A DNA stretch of 64,000 bases from positions 248,001 to 312,000 of the forward strand of contig JANQRY010000003.1 in the NCBI GenBank assembly GCA_028284345.1, read 5' to 3'. The notes under the pieces were generated by a model. The model made no database searches. It was not told the origin of the DNA and worked only from the letters and a program-made list of their open reading frames with translations. Numbering within the stretch: the first letter of the stretch is position 1; every line of letters starts with the position of its first letter. The stretch is from Hyphococcus sp. (GTDB taxonomy: Bacteria > Pseudomonadota > Alphaproteobacteria > Caulobacterales > Parvularculaceae). A program made the translations under genes and the position numbers. Positions 34,979 to 44,154 of the stretch are shown here, in pieces.

Positions 34979-36649
34979 TTAAGGCAATTCGATGGTGACG
35001 GCGCCTTTCGACGCCGAGGAAACAAGCCGGGCGAATTTATCAAAGGCGCCGCCCATTTTCCTTGGCGGTCGTGGTTTGATTTCCTTAGCCCGCGCCGCCC
35101 AGTCCACATCGGCGTCGATGCGGCGCCCTTCTGCGTCAATGGTGATGCGGTCGCCCTCTTTCAACAATCCGATCGGCCCGCCGACCGCCGCTTCCGGCGA
35201 GACGTGGCCGATAACGAAGCCGTGGCTGGCGCCGGAAAACCGGCCGTCCGTGATCAAGGCGACCTTACCGGCGAGCCCCTGCCCGGCGACGGCGGCGGTC
35301 ACGGCCAGCATTTCGCGCATGCCCGGCCCGCCTTTGGGGCCTTCATAGCGGATGACGACGACATCGCCCTTGACGATCTTGCCATGGGTAACGGCGTCGA
35401 AAGCTTCTTCCTCGCTTTCGAAAACCCGCGCCCGGCCCTCAAAGGCGCCGTCGCTGTAGCCGGCGGTTTTGAGAACGGCGCCCTCCGGCGCAACGTCGCC
35501 ATAGAGAATGCGCAGGCCCCCCGTTTCCTTGAACGGGTTCTCGACGCTGTGGACGACTTTCTGACCCGGCGCCTCTTCGGCGTTCGCCAGTTCCTCGAAC
35601 AGCGTCTTGCCGGTCACCGTCGGCGTATCAACGATCTTCCCGGCTTCCATCAGGCGTCTGCCAAAGAGCGGGTTTCCGCCCGCCGCATAGAGGTCTTTCG
35701 CAAGATACCGGCCGCCGGGCTTCAGATCCGTGATCACCGGCGTCGTGCGCGAGAGGGCGTCAAACTCGTCGATGGAAAAGGCGACGCCCGCCTCCGCGGC
35801 GATGGCCGGCAGGTGCAACACCGCATTGGTCGACCCGCCGCTGGCGACGACCGCGGTCGCCGCATTCCGGAGCGAGGCTTCGGTAATGAAAGACCGGGCC
35901 GTTTTTCCTTCCTGCGCCAGCGACGCGACGATGCGGCCACACCGTTCGGCTTCTTTGACCTTGGCGCTGGCGGTCGCCGGCGGATCGGCCGCGCCCATGG
36001 GACTGATCCCGAGAAAGGTCAGCGCCATGGCCATTGTATTCGCCGTGAACTGGCCGCCGCAGGCGCCGGCGCCCGGGCACGCCGCCCGTTCGATGGCGTC
36101 GAGTTCTTCGTCGTCGATATCGCCCTTGGCGTGGGCCCCGACGGCTTCGAACACATCCTGAATGGAAAGATCCCGGTCGCCGAGATGGCCGGGCATGATG
36201 GTGCCGCCATAGAGAACGACGCCCGGAATATCCATGCGCGCCAGCGCCATGGCGGCGGCGGGGATGGTCTTGTCGCAACCGACCAGAATGATCGCTGCGT
36301 CGAGGGAATGTCCGCGCACGGCGAGTTCAATCGAGTCCGCGATCAACTCGCGGCTCATCAGTGAGGCGCGCATGCCCTCCCCGCCCATGGTGATGCCGTC
36401 GGAAACGACGATGGTGTTAAAGTCGATGGGCGTCGCGCCGCCGGCGCGCACGCCGGCGCGCACTGGTTCGGCAAGGGCGCCGAGATGCAAATTGCACGGC
36501 GTCACCGTCGACCAGGTGTTGACGACCGCAATCATGGCCTGGGCGAAATCCTTGTCGCCATAACCCGCCGCGCGCAGCATCGCCCGCGCCGGCGCCTTTG
36601 CAGGGCCTTTTGTGATGGCGTCGGAGCGTTTGATTTTCAGTTCTGTCAT
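34979..36649 (-). CDS. ilvD: Dihydroxy-acid dehydratase
   Basis: 556 residues. Fe-S ligands are visible in [17 protein letters not shown] and [24 protein letters not shown]; the C-terminal [28 protein letters not shown] block is also present. It dehydrates dihydroxy acids to the keto-acid precursors of valine and isoleucine. It is the first structural gene of the operon and lies just past the attenuator. Confidence 0.97.
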
Positions 36650-36695
36650 TCGTGAATTTCGCTATCGTTTCGCTGTCGTTTCGCTGTTGCCGGTC

Positions 36696-36726
36696 AAAAA
36701 AAATCCCGCTTCCTTTCGGGAGCGGG
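36696..36726 (-). terminator. ilv attenuator (rho-independent terminator)
   Basis: Read on the minus strand, CCCGCTCCCGAAAGGAAGCGGG folds into a stem with one mismatch and is followed by ATTTTTTTT. It lies about 47 bp before the ilvD ATG, in the leader and downstream of a Leu/Val/Ile-rich reading frame. An upstream GGGAGCGG can pair perfectly with the CCGCTCCC of its left arm to give an antiterminator. Confidence 0.9.
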
Positions 36727-36752
36727 CTGTCTGGAGATCGTGTGTGCGTTCG

Positions 36753-36896
36753 TTAACGCGCTCGCTCCATGGCCGCTCCCCGGACGGGGCTGATAAGGAC
36801 TACGAGAAGAAGGACGAGGACCAGCGCGAGCGGCAGCGAAGTCGCGGACAACTCCGCGACATCGCCGATCCCTCCCTGATGCAGTATGCTCTGCAC
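36753..36896 (-). CDS. ilvL: ilv operon leader peptide (attenuation), start uncertain
   Basis: The frame reads ...TSLPLALVLVLLLVVLISPVRGAAMERAR and stops at TAA 36753. Thirteen of the fifteen codons 36836-36792 encode Leu, Val or Ile, as expected of a ribosome-stalling leader. The tail resembles the enteric ilv leader. The start shown is a GTG. A strong GGGAGGG ribosome site instead precedes an ATG (36862) in a different frame, so the real start is unsettled. Region 36650-37057 holds no other gene. Confidence 0.65.
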   Translation of the reverse strand: MQSILHQGGIGDVAELSATSLPLALVLVLLLVVLISPVRGAAMERAR

Positions 36897-37057
36897 TGAC
36901 TTGACCTTTTTTGCTGCGTCGCAAACGCTGCAACGCGGAACCGGCTTTACAACAGCTTTACGTCAAAACACAACCATAAACTGGCTGGTTTCATCAATTA
37001 ATTTGCGGGCGCTGTCGAATTTGCGACATATTTAGCATGATCTGCCATCGCCCGCCG

Positions 37058-38320
37058 TCAGGGCCTGATCTGGCCCTCGCCGCGGACGACATTTTTGTAG
37101 GTGGTCAGCTCCTCAACGCCCACCGGCCCGCGCGCATGGAGCCGCCCGGTGGCGATGCCAATCTCGGCCCCGAGGCCGAACTCGCCCCCGTCGGCGAACT
37201 GGGTCGAGGCGTTGACGAGGACGATGGCGCTGTCGACGCCGGCGACGAATTGATCGGCGGCGTCGGCGTTTTCGGTGACGATGGTTTCCGTGTGCCCCGA
37301 CCCATAGCGGGCGATATGGGCGACCGCCCCGGCGACGCCGTCGACAGCGGCGACGCTGATTACGGCGTCGAGATATTCCGTCTGAAAATCTTCCTCCGTC
37401 GCCTTCCCGGCCGCGCTATCGAGAGCGTGGATGGCGTCGTCGACGCGCAATTCGCAGCCCGCCTCCCGCAGCGCCGCGGCGATGGGCGGCCACAGTCGGT
37501 CGAGCGCCCCCTTGTCGATGAGCAGCGTTTCCGCCGCGCCACAAACGCCGGTGCGCCGCATCTTCGAATTGACGGCGATGGCGACGGCTTTCTCCGGGTC
37601 GGCGTCGCCATCGATATAGACATGGCAGATGCCGTCGAGATGGCTCAGCACCGGCGCGCGGGCGTCGGACTGCACCCGCGCGACCAGCGACTTGCCGCCG
37701 CGGGGAATGACGAGATCAACGGCGCCGTCAAGGCCGGACAGCAACGCACCGACCGCCGCCCGGTCAGGGGTCGTGATAAATTGCGCCGCGGTTTCCGGCA
37801 GGCCAGCGTCGGCGCAGGCGTTGCGAAAGCACTTGTAAAGAGCGCCGTTCGTTTCGATACATTCCGATCCACCGCGCAGGATCACCGCGTTGCCAGCCTT
37901 GAGCGCAATCGCCGCCGCATCGACGGTGACGTTGGGTCGGCTTTCATAAATCACCGCAACGACGCCGATGGGCGCCGCAACGCGGGCGATGGAAAGCCCG
38001 TTGGGCCGGTTCCATTCGCGAAGGGTCTTGCCGACCGGATCGTCCAGCGCCGCGATGTCGCGCAGGGCGCTGCAAACGCCGTCAATGCGTCCGTCATCAA
38101 GCGCCATACGGTCGATGAAGGCGTTCGTTTTGCCGGCCTCGCGCGCCGCGGCGACTTCCGCGGCGTTGACGCGAAGGATATCCGCCCGCGCGGCGTCGAT
38201 GTTGTCCGCCGCCTGGATCAAGGCGCGGTTCTTCGCCGCCGCGGACGCCGCCCGCATGGCCCGCGCCGCGTCCTTTGCGGCGACGCCAATGGCGTTCATG
38301 GTTTCATCAAGCGCAGTCAT
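37058..38320 (-). CDS. proA: Glutamate-5-semialdehyde dehydrogenase
   Basis: 420 residues. The aldehyde-dehydrogenase fold of ProA is seen in PIGVVAVIYESRPNVTVDAAAIALKAGNAVILRGGSE, the catalytic Cys in RRTGVCGAAETLLID, and the C-terminal EFGLGAEIGIATGRLHARGPVGVEELTTYK. It reduces glutamyl-5-phosphate to the semialdehyde. It starts in an ATGA overlap with proB and is the last gene of met-hom-proBA. Confidence 0.97.
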   Translation of the reverse strand: MTALDETMNAIGVAAKDAARAMRAASAAAKNRALIQAADNIDAARADILRVNAAEVAAAREAGKTNAFIDRMALDDGRIDGVCSALRDIAALDDPVGKTLREWNRPNGLSIARVAAPIGVVAVIYESRPNVTVDAAAIALKAGNAVILRGGSECIETNGALYKCFRNACADAGLPETAAQFITTPDRAAVGALLSGLDGAVDLVIPRGGKSLVARVQSDARAPVLSHLDGICHVYIDGDADPEKAVAIAVNSKMRRTGVCGAAETLLIDKGALDRLWPPIAAALREAGCELRVDDAIHALDSAAGKATEEDFQTEYLDAVISVAAVDGVAGAVAHIARYGSGHTETIVTENADAADQFVAGVDSAIVLVNASTQFADGGEFGLGAEIGIATGRLHARGPVGVEELTTYKNVVRGEGQIRP

Positions 38321-39468
38321 CGTTCCGGTTTCTCATGCAGGGCCAGGTCGTTTTTCTCAATCACGGCGGGCCGGCGTTTATAGCCCAGCAGTTTTTCAAT
38401 GTCGTCCGATCGGCGCCCGGCGACGCGGATTATTTCATCGCTGTGATAGGCGGAAAGGCCCTTGCCGATGGCGCGGCCGTCAGGACCGACAATGGCGACG
38501 GCGTCGCCGCGGGCAAAGGCGCCGTCCACCTTGGTCACGCCCGCCGGCAACAGGCTGGCGCCGGACCGCAGGGCTTTTTCAGCCCCGGCGTCGATATGAA
38601 TTTCGCCCGCGGGTTTCAGCCGGCCGGCAATCCAGCGCTGGCGGGCGTTGGCCGCCGCATTGTCGGCCTCAATCAGCGTCGCCGCGCCGCCGGAGAAAAT
38701 CCGCGCAAGGGGCGCATCCACATGGCCGGCGGCGATGATGGTGGCGCATCCGTTCTTCGCCGCGATCTTCGCCGCGGCCAGTTTCGACGCCATACCGCCG
38801 GCGCCGACGCCGCGCGCCGTATTCGGTCCGGCGGCGGCGCTTTCGATCTCCGGCGTCATCTTCTCAATGACGTCAAATCGCACGGCGTCGGCGTTTGTTC
38901 GGGGGTCGGCGTCATAGACGCCGTCCACATCAGAAAGGACGAGGAGCGTATCGGCCTCCACCAACTGCGCCGCGTGCGCCGCGAGGCGATCATTGTCGCC
39001 ATAGCGGATCTCGCTCGTGGCGACGGTGTCGTTTTCGTTGACGACCGGTATGGCGCCAAAATCAAGCAGGGTGCGGAATGTCGCGCGCGCATTCAGATAA
39101 CGGCGGCGGTCTTCCGTATCGTCGAGGGTGAGGAGAATTTGCGCAACGGGCGCGTCATGGGCGGCGAAGGCGGATTGCCAGGCATGGGCGAGCGCCGCCT
39201 GTCCCGCGGCCGAGGCCGCCTGTTTTTCATCGAGGCGCAAGCCGCGCCCCAGCTTCAATCGCGTTCGCCCCAGCGCAATGGCGCCCGACGAAACAATCAC
39301 GATCTCAACACCCGCCTTGCGCAACGCCGCCAGTTCCGCCGCCAGGGCGGAAAGCCACGCCTCGCGCACGCCGTCGGCCCCACACAAAATGGCGGATCCG
39401 ACTTTCACGACAAGTCGCTTCGCGCTGCGGAGGCGTTCCGCCGCAGCCGATGTCTTTTCCTTGGACAT
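38317..39468 (-). CDS. proB: Glutamate 5-kinase with PUA domain
   Basis: 383 residues from ATG 39468; the track ORF runs a further 61 codons into hom, in another frame of it. The amino-acid kinase domain has VVKVGSAILCG, VSSGAIALGR, NENDTV and LLVLSDVDGVYDADP. A C-terminal PUA domain (about 290-380) contains GEIHIDAGAEKALRSGASLLPAGV. It phosphorylates glutamate for proline synthesis. Only 10 bp separate it from the hom stop and no strong ribosome site is seen, consistent with coupling. Confidence 0.95.
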   Translation of the reverse strand: MSKEKTSAAAERLRSAKRLVVKVGSAILCGADGVREAWLSALAAELAALRKAGVEIVIVSSGAIALGRTRLKLGRGLRLDEKQAASAAGQAALAHAWQSAFAAHDAPVAQILLTLDDTEDRRRYLNARATFRTLLDFGAIPVVNENDTVATSEIRYGDNDRLAAHAAQLVEADTLLVLSDVDGVYDADPRTNADAVRFDVIEKMTPEIESAAAGPNTARGVGAGGMASKLAAAKIAAKNGCATIIAAGHVDAPLARIFSGGAATLIEADNAAANARQRWIAGRLKPAGEIHIDAGAEKALRSGASLLPAGVTKVDGAFARGDAVAIVGPDGRAIGKGLSAYHSDEIIRVAGRRSDDIEKLLGYKRRPAVIEKNDLALHEKPER

Positions 39469-39478
39469 GGGTCTGCAG

Positions 39479-40477
39479 CTAGTTCGATTCGCGCGGCGGC
39501 AGCGCGGCGCGCACCGTTTCAAGATCGGAGAACAGGCTCGCCACGGTCGGCGCGCGGCCGGCGCCCTTGTCGACGCAAGTGAAGTCGCGGCCGTCGGCGG
39601 TGACAATGCGCAAGGCGTTGCCCTCGTCCTTGACGCCGGCGAAGAAATCACTCTCCGGCACTTTCACAATTGCAACGGAGGCGGAAGATGCGACGCCGTC
39701 CGTCAACGTAACGCTCGTCAACTGTCTGAATACGCCGCCATCCGCCGCGATCTTGCGCGCGAGGTCCGCGTCGAGGGCCTCGGTCGAAATCGCGTTCCCG
39801 TCCACTTCGGCGCCGAACGCCTCGTAGCTCAGGATCGAGATTTTCGCCCGGGCGTCGTCGCCGGAAAGGTCCGCCGTCGGGTCGGGCTCGGCAAAGCCGG
39901 CGTCCTGGGCGCGGCGCACAGCGTCGTCAAAACCGGCGCCGCCAGCCAGCGCCGTCAAAATGTAATTGACGGTGCCGTTGAGGATCGCCGTCATCTCCAC
40001 GATGTCGCCATGGGCCCGCGCGCGCTGCACGGTTTCGATCATCGGCGCGCCGCCGCCGACGGAAGCGTCATAAAAAAATTGCGCGCCGGTCCGGCGCGCA
40101 ATCGACGTCAACACGTCAAGCGACCCGGCCACCGCCTGTTTATTGGCGGATATGACGCTGACGCCGCGGGCCAGCGCCTTTTCAATCAGCGCGCGGCCGA
40201 TCTCGCCGTCAGGCAGCGCATCAATGACGACGTCGGCCCCTGCATCGAGAAAGTCTTGGATGCTGTCAGTAATCAGGACGCCCGCGGGCATGGCCTCGCG
40301 CGGCTTCGATGCATCGCGCACTAGCGCGCCGCAGAACGCATAATCGTCGTCCGCGATCAGACGCAACGCCGCCCCCTCGCCGATCAGGCCAAGGCCGGCG
40401 ACGCCGACGCGCAACTGTCCCGCCTCGTCTTTCACAATCGGTTCAGACGATCCCTTGTCGACAACGTCTAGGCACAT
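39479..40477 (-). CDS. Homoserine dehydrogenase without ACT domain
   Basis: 332 residues, about 100 shorter than typical bacterial ThrA/Hom. The NAD-binding part is GVAGLGLIGEGAALRLIADDD; the catalytic/substrate region includes VSVISANKQAVAGS, YDASVGGGAPMIETVQ, LNGTVNYILT and GFAEPDPTADLSGDDARAKI. The protein ends without the usual C-terminal ACT domain, so threonine feedback is probably absent. The start overlaps the end of metB by 10 bp, placing it in a methionine operon and suggesting a dedicated supply of homoserine. Confidence 0.88.
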   Translation of the reverse strand: MCLDVVDKGSSEPIVKDEAGQLRVGVAGLGLIGEGAALRLIADDDYAFCGALVRDASKPREAMPAGVLITDSIQDFLDAGADVVIDALPDGEIGRALIEKALARGVSVISANKQAVAGSLDVLTSIARRTGAQFFYDASVGGGAPMIETVQRARAHGDIVEMTAILNGTVNYILTALAGGAGFDDAVRRAQDAGFAEPDPTADLSGDDARAKISILSYEAFGAEVDGNAISTEALDADLARKIAADGGVFRQLTSVTLTDGVASSASVAIVKVPESDFFAGVKDEGNALRIVTADGRDFTCVDKGAGRAPTVASLFSDLETVRAALPPRESN

Positions 40478-41673
40478 GCTCCAACCGCCTGTTCATTCAG
40501 GTATGTGACATTGCCGTCTGCGACGGCGCCGTCAAGAGCCGCAAAGACATCGCGAACCAGATCTTCGCTGTGCTCAAGGCCGATGGAGAACCGCACGAGC
40601 CGATCGGAAATCCCCGCGGTCTCGCGCGCCTCCGGCGTCATCGCCGCATGGGTCATGGCCGCGGGCACGCAGACAAGGCTCTCAAAACCGCCGAGGGACT
40701 CGGCGATCGTAAATATCTCAAGGCGCCGCAAAAGCTCCAGCACGTCGATGCCTTCCGTAAACTCGACGGAGAACATCGACCCGAAGCCTGATTGCTGGCG
40801 CGCGGCGATGTCATGGCCCGGATGGCTTTCAAGGCCCGGATAAAAGACTTTGGCGACGCGGCGGTCGTCATTAAGCCGGTTGACAACGTCATGGGCGGTC
40901 GCCTGCTGTCGTTCCAGCCGCGTAAACAGCGTGCGCAGTCCCCGCAGCGTCAGGAAGGAATCAAACGGCGCGCCGGTGACGCCCGTGCAATTAGCCCACC
41001 AGGCAAGCTCCTCGCCAAGCTCGGCGTCTTTGGCGATGACCGCGCCGCCGACCACGTCCGAGTGACCATTGATGAATTTCGTCGTCGAATGGACAACGAT
41101 GTCGCAGCCAAGCTCCAGCGGGCGTTGCAGCGCCGGCGACAGAAACGTGTTGTCGGCGACGACAATGGCGCCGACCTGCCGCGCGTAGCCGACGACTTTT
41201 TCGACGTCCGTGACGCGCAGCAGCGGGTTGCTCGGCGTTTCAATGAGGACAAGTTTCGGCTTCTTGGCGAAGCCGGCGGCGAGCGCGGCGAGATCAGTCT
41301 GGTCGACGTAGACAATCTTGAAGTGGCCGCGCTTGGCGCGCGCGGTCAGAAGCCGGTGCGTGCCGCCATAGCAATCATGGGGCGCCAGAACGACGTCGCC
41401 CGGATCGACAAGATTGAGAACGAGATCGACCGCCGCCATGCCGGACGACGTGACGACGCCGCGCGCGCCGCCTTCAAGGGACGCCAGCGCCTCGGCGAGC
41501 TGCGTGCGGTTGGGATTGCCGGACCGCGAATAGTCGTATTCCGGTTTCTCGCACGGATCGTTCCAGTAAAAATTCGCCGACAGATGAAGCGGCGGCGAAA
41601 CCGAGTTGTGCGCGCGGTCGGTCGAGACCCCCGCGCCGGCAACCAGGGTTTCACGGTGAAATTTATCGGTCAT
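40468..41673 (-). CDS. metB: Cystathionine gamma-synthase / O-acylhomoserine sulfhydrylase family PLP enzyme
   Basis: 401 residues. Cys/Met-metabolism PLP motifs: YDYSRSGNPNRTQLAEALASLEGG, SSGMAAVDLVLNL, VADNTFLSPALQRPLELGCDIVVHSTTKFINGHSDVVGG with the PLP lysine, and GFGSMFSVEF. It replaces the acyl group of O-acylhomoserine by cysteine (MetB) or sulfide (MetZ/MetY); the two cannot be separated by eye. It starts in an ATGA overlap with metX. Confidence 0.9.
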   Translation of the reverse strand: MTDKFHRETLVAGAGVSTDRAHNSVSPPLHLSANFYWNDPCEKPEYDYSRSGNPNRTQLAEALASLEGGARGVVTSSGMAAVDLVLNLVDPGDVVLAPHDCYGGTHRLLTARAKRGHFKIVYVDQTDLAALAAGFAKKPKLVLIETPSNPLLRVTDVEKVVGYARQVGAIVVADNTFLSPALQRPLELGCDIVVHSTTKFINGHSDVVGGAVIAKDAELGEELAWWANCTGVTGAPFDSFLTLRGLRTLFTRLERQQATAHDVVNRLNDDRRVAKVFYPGLESHPGHDIAARQQSGFGSMFSVEFTEGIDVLELLRRLEIFTIAESLGGFESLVCVPAAMTHAAMTPEARETAGISDRLVRFSIGLEHSEDLVRDVFAALDGAVADGNVTYLNEQAVGACA

Positions 41674-42653
41674 TTGCCGGGCTCCTTCAAAAAACGGTCA
41701 ATGAACGGGCCGATGGACGCGGCTTCCTTGAGAAAAGCGTCATGGCCATATTGAGAAACAATTTCGACATAGCGTGCGCGCGCGACAGCGGCGGCGCAGC
41801 GGCGCACTTCCGCCGGCGGCGAAAGCTGGTCGCCCTGCGCCGCGACGAACAGCGCCCGGGCGCGGATTTTCGACAGATCGACCGCATGCCGGTCGATGGA
41901 GTCCGAAAGCGTGATGAACCGCTGCGGATCCATGCCGAAAGCCTCCCCCCGCGCGATCAGATAATCGCAAACGGCGTAAGGATCGCCGGCGGCCGCGCCG
42001 GGCGCATGGTCAAAGCGCGCGGAGAACTCGCCCGGCGTGCGATAGCTCACCATGGCGAGCTGGCGCGCAAGCGCGACGCCCTCGTCGGCGTCGCCGTTCT
42101 TTCGCGCAAAATCGACAATGCGCCGCTGCACGCCGCGCAGCGCCGTGCCAAAGGCGTGCGGCCGTTCGGCAGCGGAAACGACGATGAGATTCTTGATCCG
42201 GTCCGGATAAGCGGCGGCGAAAGCGAGTGCGACCATGCCGCCATAGGAAGACCCGACAAACGCATCGAGGCCCTTAACGCCGAGCGCATCGAGCGCGACC
42301 GACAAGGCGCGCGCCTGATCAAGCGTTGAAATCGTCGTCGCCTGTTCCTCAGCATTCGGAAGGAAATCAAATCCGAGAACACAGTATGTGTTGAGGTCGA
42401 TGACCCGGCCGGGGGCGACGTAATCGGCCCACCATCCTTTTTCCTCGCCCGCATCCGCGACCACGCGGCCGGCGGAGATGCCGCCGGCGACGGCGATAAC
42501 CGGTTTCGCAGGATCGCCGTAAAGCCGCACGGCGATGCGCGGCTCGCTGAGAGACTCGCCGCCATCGAGCGTAAATTCCGCCGGCAGCGCAATGACCGCG
42601 TCGCGCCAGGCGCCGCGACAGTCGCTGTCCTCAACTTTCAATACGGCTGACAT
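41670..42653 (-). CDS. metX: Homoserine O-acyltransferase, MetX-type alpha/beta hydrolase
   Basis: 327 residues from ATG 42653 (the track starts one codon earlier at TTG), with AAGAGG upstream. The nucleophile elbow is VGSSYGGMVAL, and the Asp and His of the triad are likely in AAQGDQLSPP and SQYGHDAFLKEA. It is shorter than classic MetX (about 370) and resembles the form that often uses succinyl-CoA, so acetyl or succinyl specificity is open. It is first gene of metX-metB-hom-proB-proA, behind a SAM-I riboswitch. Confidence 0.9.
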   Translation of the reverse strand: MSAVLKVEDSDCRGAWRDAVIALPAEFTLDGGESLSEPRIAVRLYGDPAKPVIAVAGGISAGRVVADAGEEKGWWADYVAPGRVIDLNTYCVLGFDFLPNAEEQATTISTLDQARALSVALDALGVKGLDAFVGSSYGGMVALAFAAAYPDRIKNLIVVSAAERPHAFGTALRGVQRRIVDFARKNGDADEGVALARQLAMVSYRTPGEFSARFDHAPGAAAGDPYAVCDYLIARGEAFGMDPQRFITLSDSIDRHAVDLSKIRARALFVAAQGDQLSPPAEVRRCAAAVARARYVEIVSQYGHDAFLKEAASIGPFIDRFLKEPGK

Positions 42654-42658
42654 CAAAA

Positions 42659-42698
42659 TGCCTCTTGCTCGCGTCGTTTCCGTCGCTCATCAGAGGCA
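42659..42698 (-). promoter_or_regulatory. Expression platform: RBS-sequestering hairpin before metX
   Basis: TGCCTCT (42698-42692, minus strand) is perfectly complementary to AGAGGCA (42665-42659), which contains the metX ribosome site AAGAGG. GATGAG next to the anti-ribosome arm repeats the 3' strand of the riboswitch P1 and could pair with its 5' strand instead. Another hairpin, TCGAACGAA/TTCGTTCGA, lies in between. The pairings are seen in sequence; the switching model is inference. Confidence 0.55.
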
Positions 42699-42740
42699 AT
42701 TCGCTAGAGACCGATCGAACGAAAGCTTATCTTCGTTCGA

Positions 42741-42857
42741 CTCATCTCTCGGGAATCTCTTCCCGAAGGAATTGGCACCTTTCCAAAGAAGTCGGTCAGA
42801 CTTTTCCGGCGGTTGCCCCAGCGTCAACGGGCCTGTCCCTCAGCTGGTCTTGATGAG
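42741..42857 (-). ncRNA. SAM-I (S-box) riboswitch controlling metX-metB-hom-proBA
   Basis: The minus strand carries the S-box core: P1 CTCATC...GATGAG, AAGA, a P2 closed by CCAGC/GCTGG around GAGGGACAGGCCCGTTGA, GGGGCAACC, P3 with AAGTC/GACTT, AGGTGCCAATTCC, and P4 TTCGGGAA-GAGA-TTCCCGAG. These conserved blocks occur in order and spacing. A TTGACG/TAAGTC promoter-like pair sits just upstream (about 42896-42868). With SAM bound, the downstream platform probably hides the metX ribosome site. Confidence 0.93.
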
Positions 42858-42957
42858 TTGGCGGGTGACTTACTTCGCAGACGCGGAAACGTCAACCGAA
42901 TATCGTGCCGAGGGCGCTGTTTTAGCAGAATTCTCCAACCGGTTGGCCGGATACGCC

Positions 42958-44154
42958 TTAGGCCGCGAAGACCTTTTTCAGGTTACGCGCCGCCTGACGA
43001 ATGCGCTGCTGGTTCTCGACAAGGCCGATGCGCACGTGACCGTCGCCCATCTCGCCGAAGCCGAGGCCCGGCGCGACGGCGACCTCGGCCTTTTCCATCA
43101 GCATCTTGGCGAAGGCGACCGAGCCCATGTTGCGAAACGTCTCCGGGATCGGCGCCCAGGCGAACATGGACGCCTCCGGCGCGGGGATCTCCCACCCGGC
43201 CTTGCCGAAATGCTCGATCAGCACGTCGCGTCGCGCCCGGTAAATATTCCGTATGCCGTCAATGACGTCGGGCGGGCTGTCGAGCGCGGCGACCGCCGCA
43301 ACCTGGATCGGCGTGAAAGCGCCATAGTCGAGATAGGATTTCACCCGCGCCAGCGCCGCAATGAGCCGCGCATTGCCCACCGCCATGCCGACCCGCCAGC
43401 CGGCCATGGCGAAGGATTTGGACAGTGAATTGACCTCGACCGCATTGGCGATGGCGCCGGGGACTTCGAAAATCGACGGCGGCGGATCGCCAAAATAGAT
43501 CTCAGAGTAAGCAAGGTCCGACAGGATGATGATGTCGTGCTTGCGCGCCAGCGCCAGCGCCTCCTTGTAGAAATCGAGGCCGACCATCTGCGCCGTCGGG
43601 TTCGACGGGTAGTTCAACACCATCGCACGGGGCGTTTTCGGCAACCGCGCCACCGCATCATGAAGGCCTTTAAGATACTGCTCCGGCGTCAGCGCCGGCG
43701 CCGCCTCGATGACGCCGCCGGCGATGATGAAGCCATAGGCGTGTATCGGATAGGCGGGATTGGGCGACAGGATGACGTCGCCCGGCGCGGTGATCGCCTG
43801 GGCGAGATTGGCGAAGCCCTCTTTCGAGCCGAGGGTCGCGACAATCTCCGTCTCCGGATCAAGGCGCACGTTGAAACGGCGCTCATAATATCGCGCCATG
43901 GCGCGCCGAAGGCCGAGGATGCCGCGGGAAACCGAATAGCGATGGGCCTTCGGGTCATGGGCGGTCTCGCAGAGTTTTTCGACGATATGCGGCGGGGTCG
44001 CCATGTCCGGATTGCCCATGCCGAGGTCGATAATATCGCGGCGCTGGGCGCGAAGCTGCGCCTTCACGCGGTTTACCTCCTCAAAAACGTAAGGGGGCAA
44101 CTGCTTAATGCGATAAAACTCTTCGTCGATCATCGGATTCAAATTCGGCGTCAT
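42958..44154 (-). CDS. AlaC-type aminotransferase (class I/II; LL-DAP aminotransferase-like)
   Basis: 398 residues from ATG 44154; the track's longer start is a TTG with a poorly conserved N-terminus. Fold type I PLP motifs: IIDLGMGNPDMATP, YPSNPTAQMV, DLAYSEIYFGD, and SLSKSFAMAGWRVGMAVGN with the PLP lysine. It belongs to the AlaC/YfdZ group often annotated as LL-diaminopimelate aminotransferase; glutamate-pyruvate transamination is the likelier role. It follows gltB by 101 bp on the same strand. Confidence 0.82.
   Translation of the reverse strand: MTPNLNPMIDEEFYRIKQLPPYVFEEVNRVKAQLRAQRRDIIDLGMGNPDMATPPHIVEKLCETAHDPKAHRYSVSRGILGLRRAMARYYERRFNVRLDPETEIVATLGSKEGFANLAQAITAPGDVILSPNPAYPIHAYGFIIAGGVIEAAPALTPEQYLKGLHDAVARLPKTPRAMVLNYPSNPTAQMVGLDFYKEALALARKHDIIILSDLAYSEIYFGDPPPSIFEVPGAIANAVEVNSLSKSFAMAGWRVGMAVGNARLIAALARVKSYLDYGAFTPIQVAAVAALDSPPDVIDGIRNIYRARRDVLIEHFGKAGWEIPAPEASMFAWAPIPETFRNMGSVAFAKMLMEKAEVAVAPGLGFGEMGDGHVRIGLVENQQRIRQAARNLKKVFAA

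Follow-up and report, generated by a model that had tools for sequence, protein, structure and literature searches.

In Xanthomonas campestris, the met operon metA-metB-hom is controlled by a SAM-I riboswitch, SAM-IXcc, which has no terminator; it represses a translational fusion by ~98% and a transcriptional fusion by 24%, its SAM-free fold keeps the Shine-Dalgarno (SD) sequence closed, and uncharged initiator tRNA binds at its anti-SD (PMC7270179). SAM-I was not among the classes scanned in a 2014 survey of proteobacteria (PMC4239095), and our literature search found no report on SAM-I in Brevundimonas or Parvularcula. Here we describe a locus from a marine alphaproteobacterium of the family Parvularculaceae, in a 64,000-nucleotide stretch of DNA (the window, whose positions are used below), in which a SAM-I aptamer heads metX-metB-hom-proB-proA on the minus strand and in all probability acts mainly on translation.

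Aptamer identity, distribution and ancestry

Judged from its sequence, the aptamer is a genuine SAM-I riboswitch. A cmscan search of Rfam matched RF00162 (SAM-I/S-box) at 42859-42739 on the minus strand with 87.5 bits (E 2.2e-19; gathering cut-off 44.4 bits) over positions 1-108 of the 108-position model, that is, over its full length. The Rfam alignment contains the core elements AUCAAGA, GGCAACC, GGUGCC and AGAU before the P1 3' strand, together with helices P1-P4; three positions are non-standard, one of which is the outermost P1 pair. Every motif that an earlier note on this DNA quoted is confirmed on the minus strand. The class that it named also holds in the covariance check against RF00162 and SAM-IV (RF00634), in which RF00162 was the sole clan member reported and the aptamer did not qualify as SAM-IV. 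A permissive scan of 36500-43100 found no other RNA family, SAM-IV included. The aptamer presumably binds SAM. Its elements are as follows.

42739..42859, minus strand: complete SAM-I (S-box) aptamer, RF00162 (cmscan)
42852..42859, minus strand: P1 5' strand, AACUCAUC (Rfam alignment)
42739..42746, minus strand: P1 3' strand, GAUGAGUC (Rfam alignment)
42744..42749, minus strand: AGAGAU at J4/1-P1, an SD look-alike and predicted partner of GGUCUCU if P1 is open (pairing counts and prefix folds)

The source genome (3.41 Mb, 10 contigs) has a single RF00162 copy. Of 28 genomes in the genus, 23 (source genome included) have RF00162, as do 113 of 398 genomes of the organism's order and 5 of 289 genomes sampled across Alphaproteobacteria, two of these five belonging to the order. 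An S-box is thus rare in the class, as the earlier note had supposed in calling it notable, but it is common in this order and so is ordinary here. Searches for SAM-II (RF00521) and SAM-V (RF01826) gave no match in the source genome, and none in the control genomes either. Loci with metX and an aptamer also occur in Brevundimonas, Asticcacaulis and Robiginitomaculum, and the aptamers of relatives within the order lie upstream of metX or metB. In the MetX tree, sequences group mostly by family inside the order, with a Xanthomonadaceae-like set apart (the f47 genomes, which we infer to be Xanthomonadaceae from their operon and an AUGGC anti-AUG-like sequence). The switch and gene pair therefore look inherited and not recently acquired; the aptamer in this lineage is apparently inherited, and recent transfer from Xanthomonas is rejected on the same grouping. 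Parvularculaceae and other families of the order would join the lineages whose methionine synthesis is under a SAM-I switch.

Some relatives carry a second SAM-I copy. Two Brevundimonas-group genomes (L147, 2975-3083; L148, 1899-2007) have one that precedes a gene for a TonB-dependent receptor by ~240-300 nt, which suggests that SAM controls the uptake of methionine or a related compound. In L133 and L136 the extra copy precedes a metB-like gene that lies apart from metX, and in L149 it is flanked by a cysH-like gene and one for a homocysteine S-methyltransferase.

Operon and candidate promoter

Five genes follow the aptamer, and profile matches bear out the names that they had been given.

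41670..42653, minus strand: metX, homoserine O-succinyltransferase type (NF006449, 325 bits, cut-off 296)
40468..41673, minus strand: metB, cystathionine gamma-synthase (TIGR02080, 537.6 bits, cut-off 504.55)
39479..40477, minus strand: hom, homoserine dehydrogenase, 332 aa (PF00742, 5.5e-38)
38317..39468, minus strand: proB, glutamate 5-kinase (TIGR01027, 387.6 bits; start codon)
37058..38320, minus strand: proA, glutamate-5-semialdehyde dehydrogenase (NF001221, 548.7 bits)

The genes overlap or nearly touch, as previously proposed, with gaps of at most 10 nt: metX (ATG at 42653) overlaps metB by 4 nt, metB overlaps hom by 10, hom and proB are 10 nt apart, and proB overlaps proA by 4. The order metX-metB-hom-proB-proA is kept in relatives. 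Within the genus, the metX/metB overlap is usually 4 nt and that of metB and hom usually 10; hom and proB are 6-63 nt apart with one exception of 387 nt (L063), and proB-proA spacing ranges from -4 to +30. These short conserved spacings place proB-proA consistently for reading from one start with metX-metB-hom, and the conserved gene order makes SAM control of the proline genes plausible, which offers a testable tie between SAM level and proline genes. It is only slightly less likely to be true than false, however, that the riboswitch governs metX-metB-hom alone and that proB-proA are read independently of SAM from a promoter inside hom. Proline would be needed even when methionine is plentiful, internal promoters are conceivable, and the 387-nt gap of L063 fits such an arrangement; the short hom-proB distance here (10 nt) and in most genus members (6-63 nt) argues against it.

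Hom has no match to a C-terminal regulatory domain. In one relative (L055, 10147-11916) the place of hom is taken by a gene for a 589-aa protein that fuses an amino acid kinase domain to Hom and starts with the same MCLDVVD overlap with metB; in L060, L062 and L063 there is a gap here whose size agrees with such a fusion. Within hom of the window, a 12-bp hairpin followed by a T run (40103-40077, minus strand) resembles an intrinsic terminator that translation would mask. Its use as a second control layer was considered and rejected: the hairpin is present here and absent from relatives.

A gap of ~400 nt separates proA from ilvD. Before ilvD, 36896-36704 (minus strand) contains a short Leu/Val/Ile-rich ORF (...LPLALVLVLLLVVLISPVRGAAMERAR*, end 36753, start uncertain) and then an intrinsic terminator at 36721-36704. 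A similar Leu/Val-rich ORF and terminator precede ilvD in 10 other Parvularculaceae loci. From its sequence, this leader is likely a branched-chain amino acid attenuator, of which E. coli ilvL is a comparable example.

Transcription of the operon probably starts from a promoter next to the aptamer.

42867..42895, minus strand: candidate sigma-70-type promoter TTGACG-N17-TAAGTC (conserved TTGAC)

The candidate -10 ends 7 nt before the aptamer, and the first transcribed base probably lies at the edge of P1. TTGAC occurs at the same place, ~35 nt before the aptamer, in 31/31 Parvularculaceae, and within 75 nt of it in all 41 Brevundimonas-group and all 10 Asticcacaulis sequences. The -10 TAAGTC of the window is weak and a consensus scan did not call this promoter. 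An inverted repeat in the promoter spacer (42873-42889, minus strand; like TTCGC-n-TGCGAA), also found in many genus members, is perhaps a transcription factor operator.

Expression platform

The aptamer's 3' end is at 42739, and the remainder of the interval that the earlier note had assigned to the riboswitch (42738-42659) is expression platform. From the aptamer to metX, the minus strand has no terminator-like site, in agreement with the earlier statement that no rho-independent terminator follows. The platform contains the following elements.

42714..42741, minus strand: P5 hairpin, GUCGAACGAAG...CUUUCGUUCGAU (fold and two-sided changes)
42706..42712, minus strand: conserved switching/anti-SD element GGUCUCU (position after P5; pairs with SD)
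42692..42698, minus strand: second anti-SD UGCCUCU, perfect 7-bp complement of AGAGGCA (L001, L006, L008 and L010 only)
42686..42692, minus strand: UGAUGAG, possible partner of the P1 5' strand CUCAUCA (duplex energy and prefix folds)
42661..42666, minus strand: SD AAGAGG of metX (sequence; 8-13 nt before ATG 42653)

The platform order in Parvularculaceae is P1, P5, GGUCUCU, a variable part and the SD (AGAGGC, AGAGAC, AGGGAU etc.), and P5 has G-C to A-U changes on both strands among relatives. GGUCUCU lies 49-79 nt before the start codon in 31 sequences. It can pair with the SD at 5-6 of 6 positions (for each of the six, 27-30 of 30 sequences have the pair), and in all 31 it can pair with 5-6 of the 6 bases of AGAGAU in the aptamer. 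Six matching bases can readily arise by chance when G-U pairs are allowed, and the weight rests on the fixed position and on longer duplex energies. These pairs were counted in a hand-set register, and counts from the MAFFT alignment were not used because it misaligns the SD and anti-SD columns. In L135, an A to G change in the aptamer, U to C in the element and A to G in the SD occur together (GGAGAU/GUCUUC/GGAGAC), and L132 has partly the same triple change; strong covariation is lacking because most platform positions vary too little. In 15 of 31 Parvularculaceae, complementarity to the SD region exceeds that of shuffled sequences (p<0.05), mostly via GGUCUCU. In the window alone, SD pairing is not above shuffles (p=0.129) and its best partner is UGCCUCU. 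The earlier proposal that TGCCTCT hides the SD thus applies to the window and its three nearest relatives, but the family-wide conserved element is GGUCUCU. The platform is the lineage-specific part; the aptamer itself is typical of its known class.

There would be no need for this conserved SD complementarity if transcription were the main target of the aptamer, whether Rho terminated the untranslated mRNA or a non-canonical terminator was used, and SD masking came second. Such control is improbable. There is no intrinsic terminator, yet untranslated GC-rich operons are open to Rho, and the partial repression of the SAM-IXcc transcriptional fusion (~24%; PMC7270179) would fit; the terminator-like hairpin inside hom would also fit, were it not absent from relatives.

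A second GATGAG had also been proposed to compete for the P1 5' strand. CUCAUCA of P1 and UGAUGAG (42692-42686) can form 7 pairs, and together with AGACC:GGUCU the duplex reaches -12.4, whereas shuffled sequences average -7.2 (p=0.02). Counterparts are significant in 6/6 Xanthomonadaceae-like genomes (CAUCGAG with CUCGAUG), in 9/11 Asticcacaulis (CAUCGAGACC with GGUC..CGAUG) and in 15/45 Brevundimonas-group sequences (CAUCAAGACC with GGUCUUG). Within the genus, pairing is significant in no more than 6 of 23 members, and in Robiginitomaculum-like genomes, where such complementarity was also sought, 0 of 18 rose above shuffles. CAUCAAG is replaced by CAUCGAG in Asticcacaulis and the Xanthomonadaceae-like set, and there the platform matches with CGAUG; this matched change is the trace expected of real pairing. 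The proposed competition is thus moderately supported in the window and has counterparts in other lineages but fails in many relatives.

Predicted folding and mechanism

Forcing the aptamer fold gives an SD that is 83% paired and an AUG that is 85% unpaired; when the P1 5' strand is forced onto UGAUGAG, the SD is 69% unpaired. Ligand-free prefix folds retain P1 up to 140 nt, AGAGAU:GUCUCU replaces it at 155 nt, and prefixes of 176-186 nt contain both competing helices, including UGAUGAG with the P1 5' strand. In the unconstrained full-length fold, the SD hairpin is closed even without P1. Folding with and without P1, which the earlier note had put forward as a check, thus agrees with SD masking when the aptamer is forced, but does not open the SD when P1 is lost, so that the ON state would need co-transcriptional folding, ribosome capture or another factor. 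The minimum free energy fold pairs AUCAAGA of the P1 5' side with the AUG region, which we treat as an alternative predicted fold only.

An additional factor is known for SAM-IXcc, and a dual sensor as in Xanthomonas, in which the SD would also be opened by uncharged initiator tRNA (tRNA-fMet) bound to the anti-SD of the platform, would explain why the SD is closed without SAM in the full-length fold. The riboswitch class, the operon and the SAM-free closed SD are all as in SAM-IXcc (PMC7270179). We nevertheless regard tRNA sensing as unlikely here: the platform cannot be aligned with the Xanthomonadaceae-like one, and the tRNA-contacting bases of SAM-IXcc have no identifiable equivalent.

A SAM-I riboswitch acting mainly on translation is favored by the lack of a terminator, the conserved SD complementarity, the forced and prefix folds, and the SAM-IXcc precedent. 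Transcription would start at or just before the aptamer. At low SAM, GGUCUCU would capture the P1 3' side (AGAGAU...) and so extend the P5 hairpin, the P1 5' strand thus released could pair with the emerging UGAUGAG, and the SD would be open, at least co-transcriptionally, with metX-metB-hom translated. With SAM bound, P1 would be locked, and GGUCUCU (with UGCCUCU in this clade) would be free to pair with the SD AAGAGG(CA), leaving metX untranslated; metB, hom and probably proB-proA would fall with metX via overlapping starts or polarity. It is possible, although doubtful, that the scheme holds in its fullest form, with the aptamer's SD look-alike AGAGAU and the real SD sharing GGUCUCU according to SAM and the five-gene operon tying proline synthesis to the SAM pool.

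Comparison with known SAM riboswitches

Characterized Firmicute SAM-I (S-box, RF00162) riboswitches, such as B. subtilis yitJ, share the aptamer class and conserved core with the window but have an intrinsic terminator (PMC7270179), which the window lacks. The SAM-II and SAM-V riboswitches (RF00521, RF01826) of other Alphaproteobacteria share the ligand and type of target gene, whereas their aptamers are unrelated. SAM-IXcc is the closest studied relative of the window switch. Both have an RF00162-type aptamer that heads homoserine O-succinyltransferase-metB-hom, no terminator and a platform anti-SD; sequestration of the SD by this anti-SD is likewise predicted for the window. Another shared feature is a P1 5' strand complementary to the platform, which we saw on the Xanthomonas side in the Xanthomonadaceae-like f47 genomes. 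The two systems also differ: SAM-IXcc masks the AUG as well, while the forced-aptamer fold of the window leaves it 85% unpaired; their platform sequences are unrelated; proB-proA follow hom in the window, unlike in the SAM-IXcc operon; and the MetX tree separates the window group from the Xanthomonadaceae-like group. The window thus provides a second, independent platform for testing whether translational SAM-I switches as a rule open the SD with the help of an extra factor, such as the uncharged initiator tRNA of SAM-IXcc.
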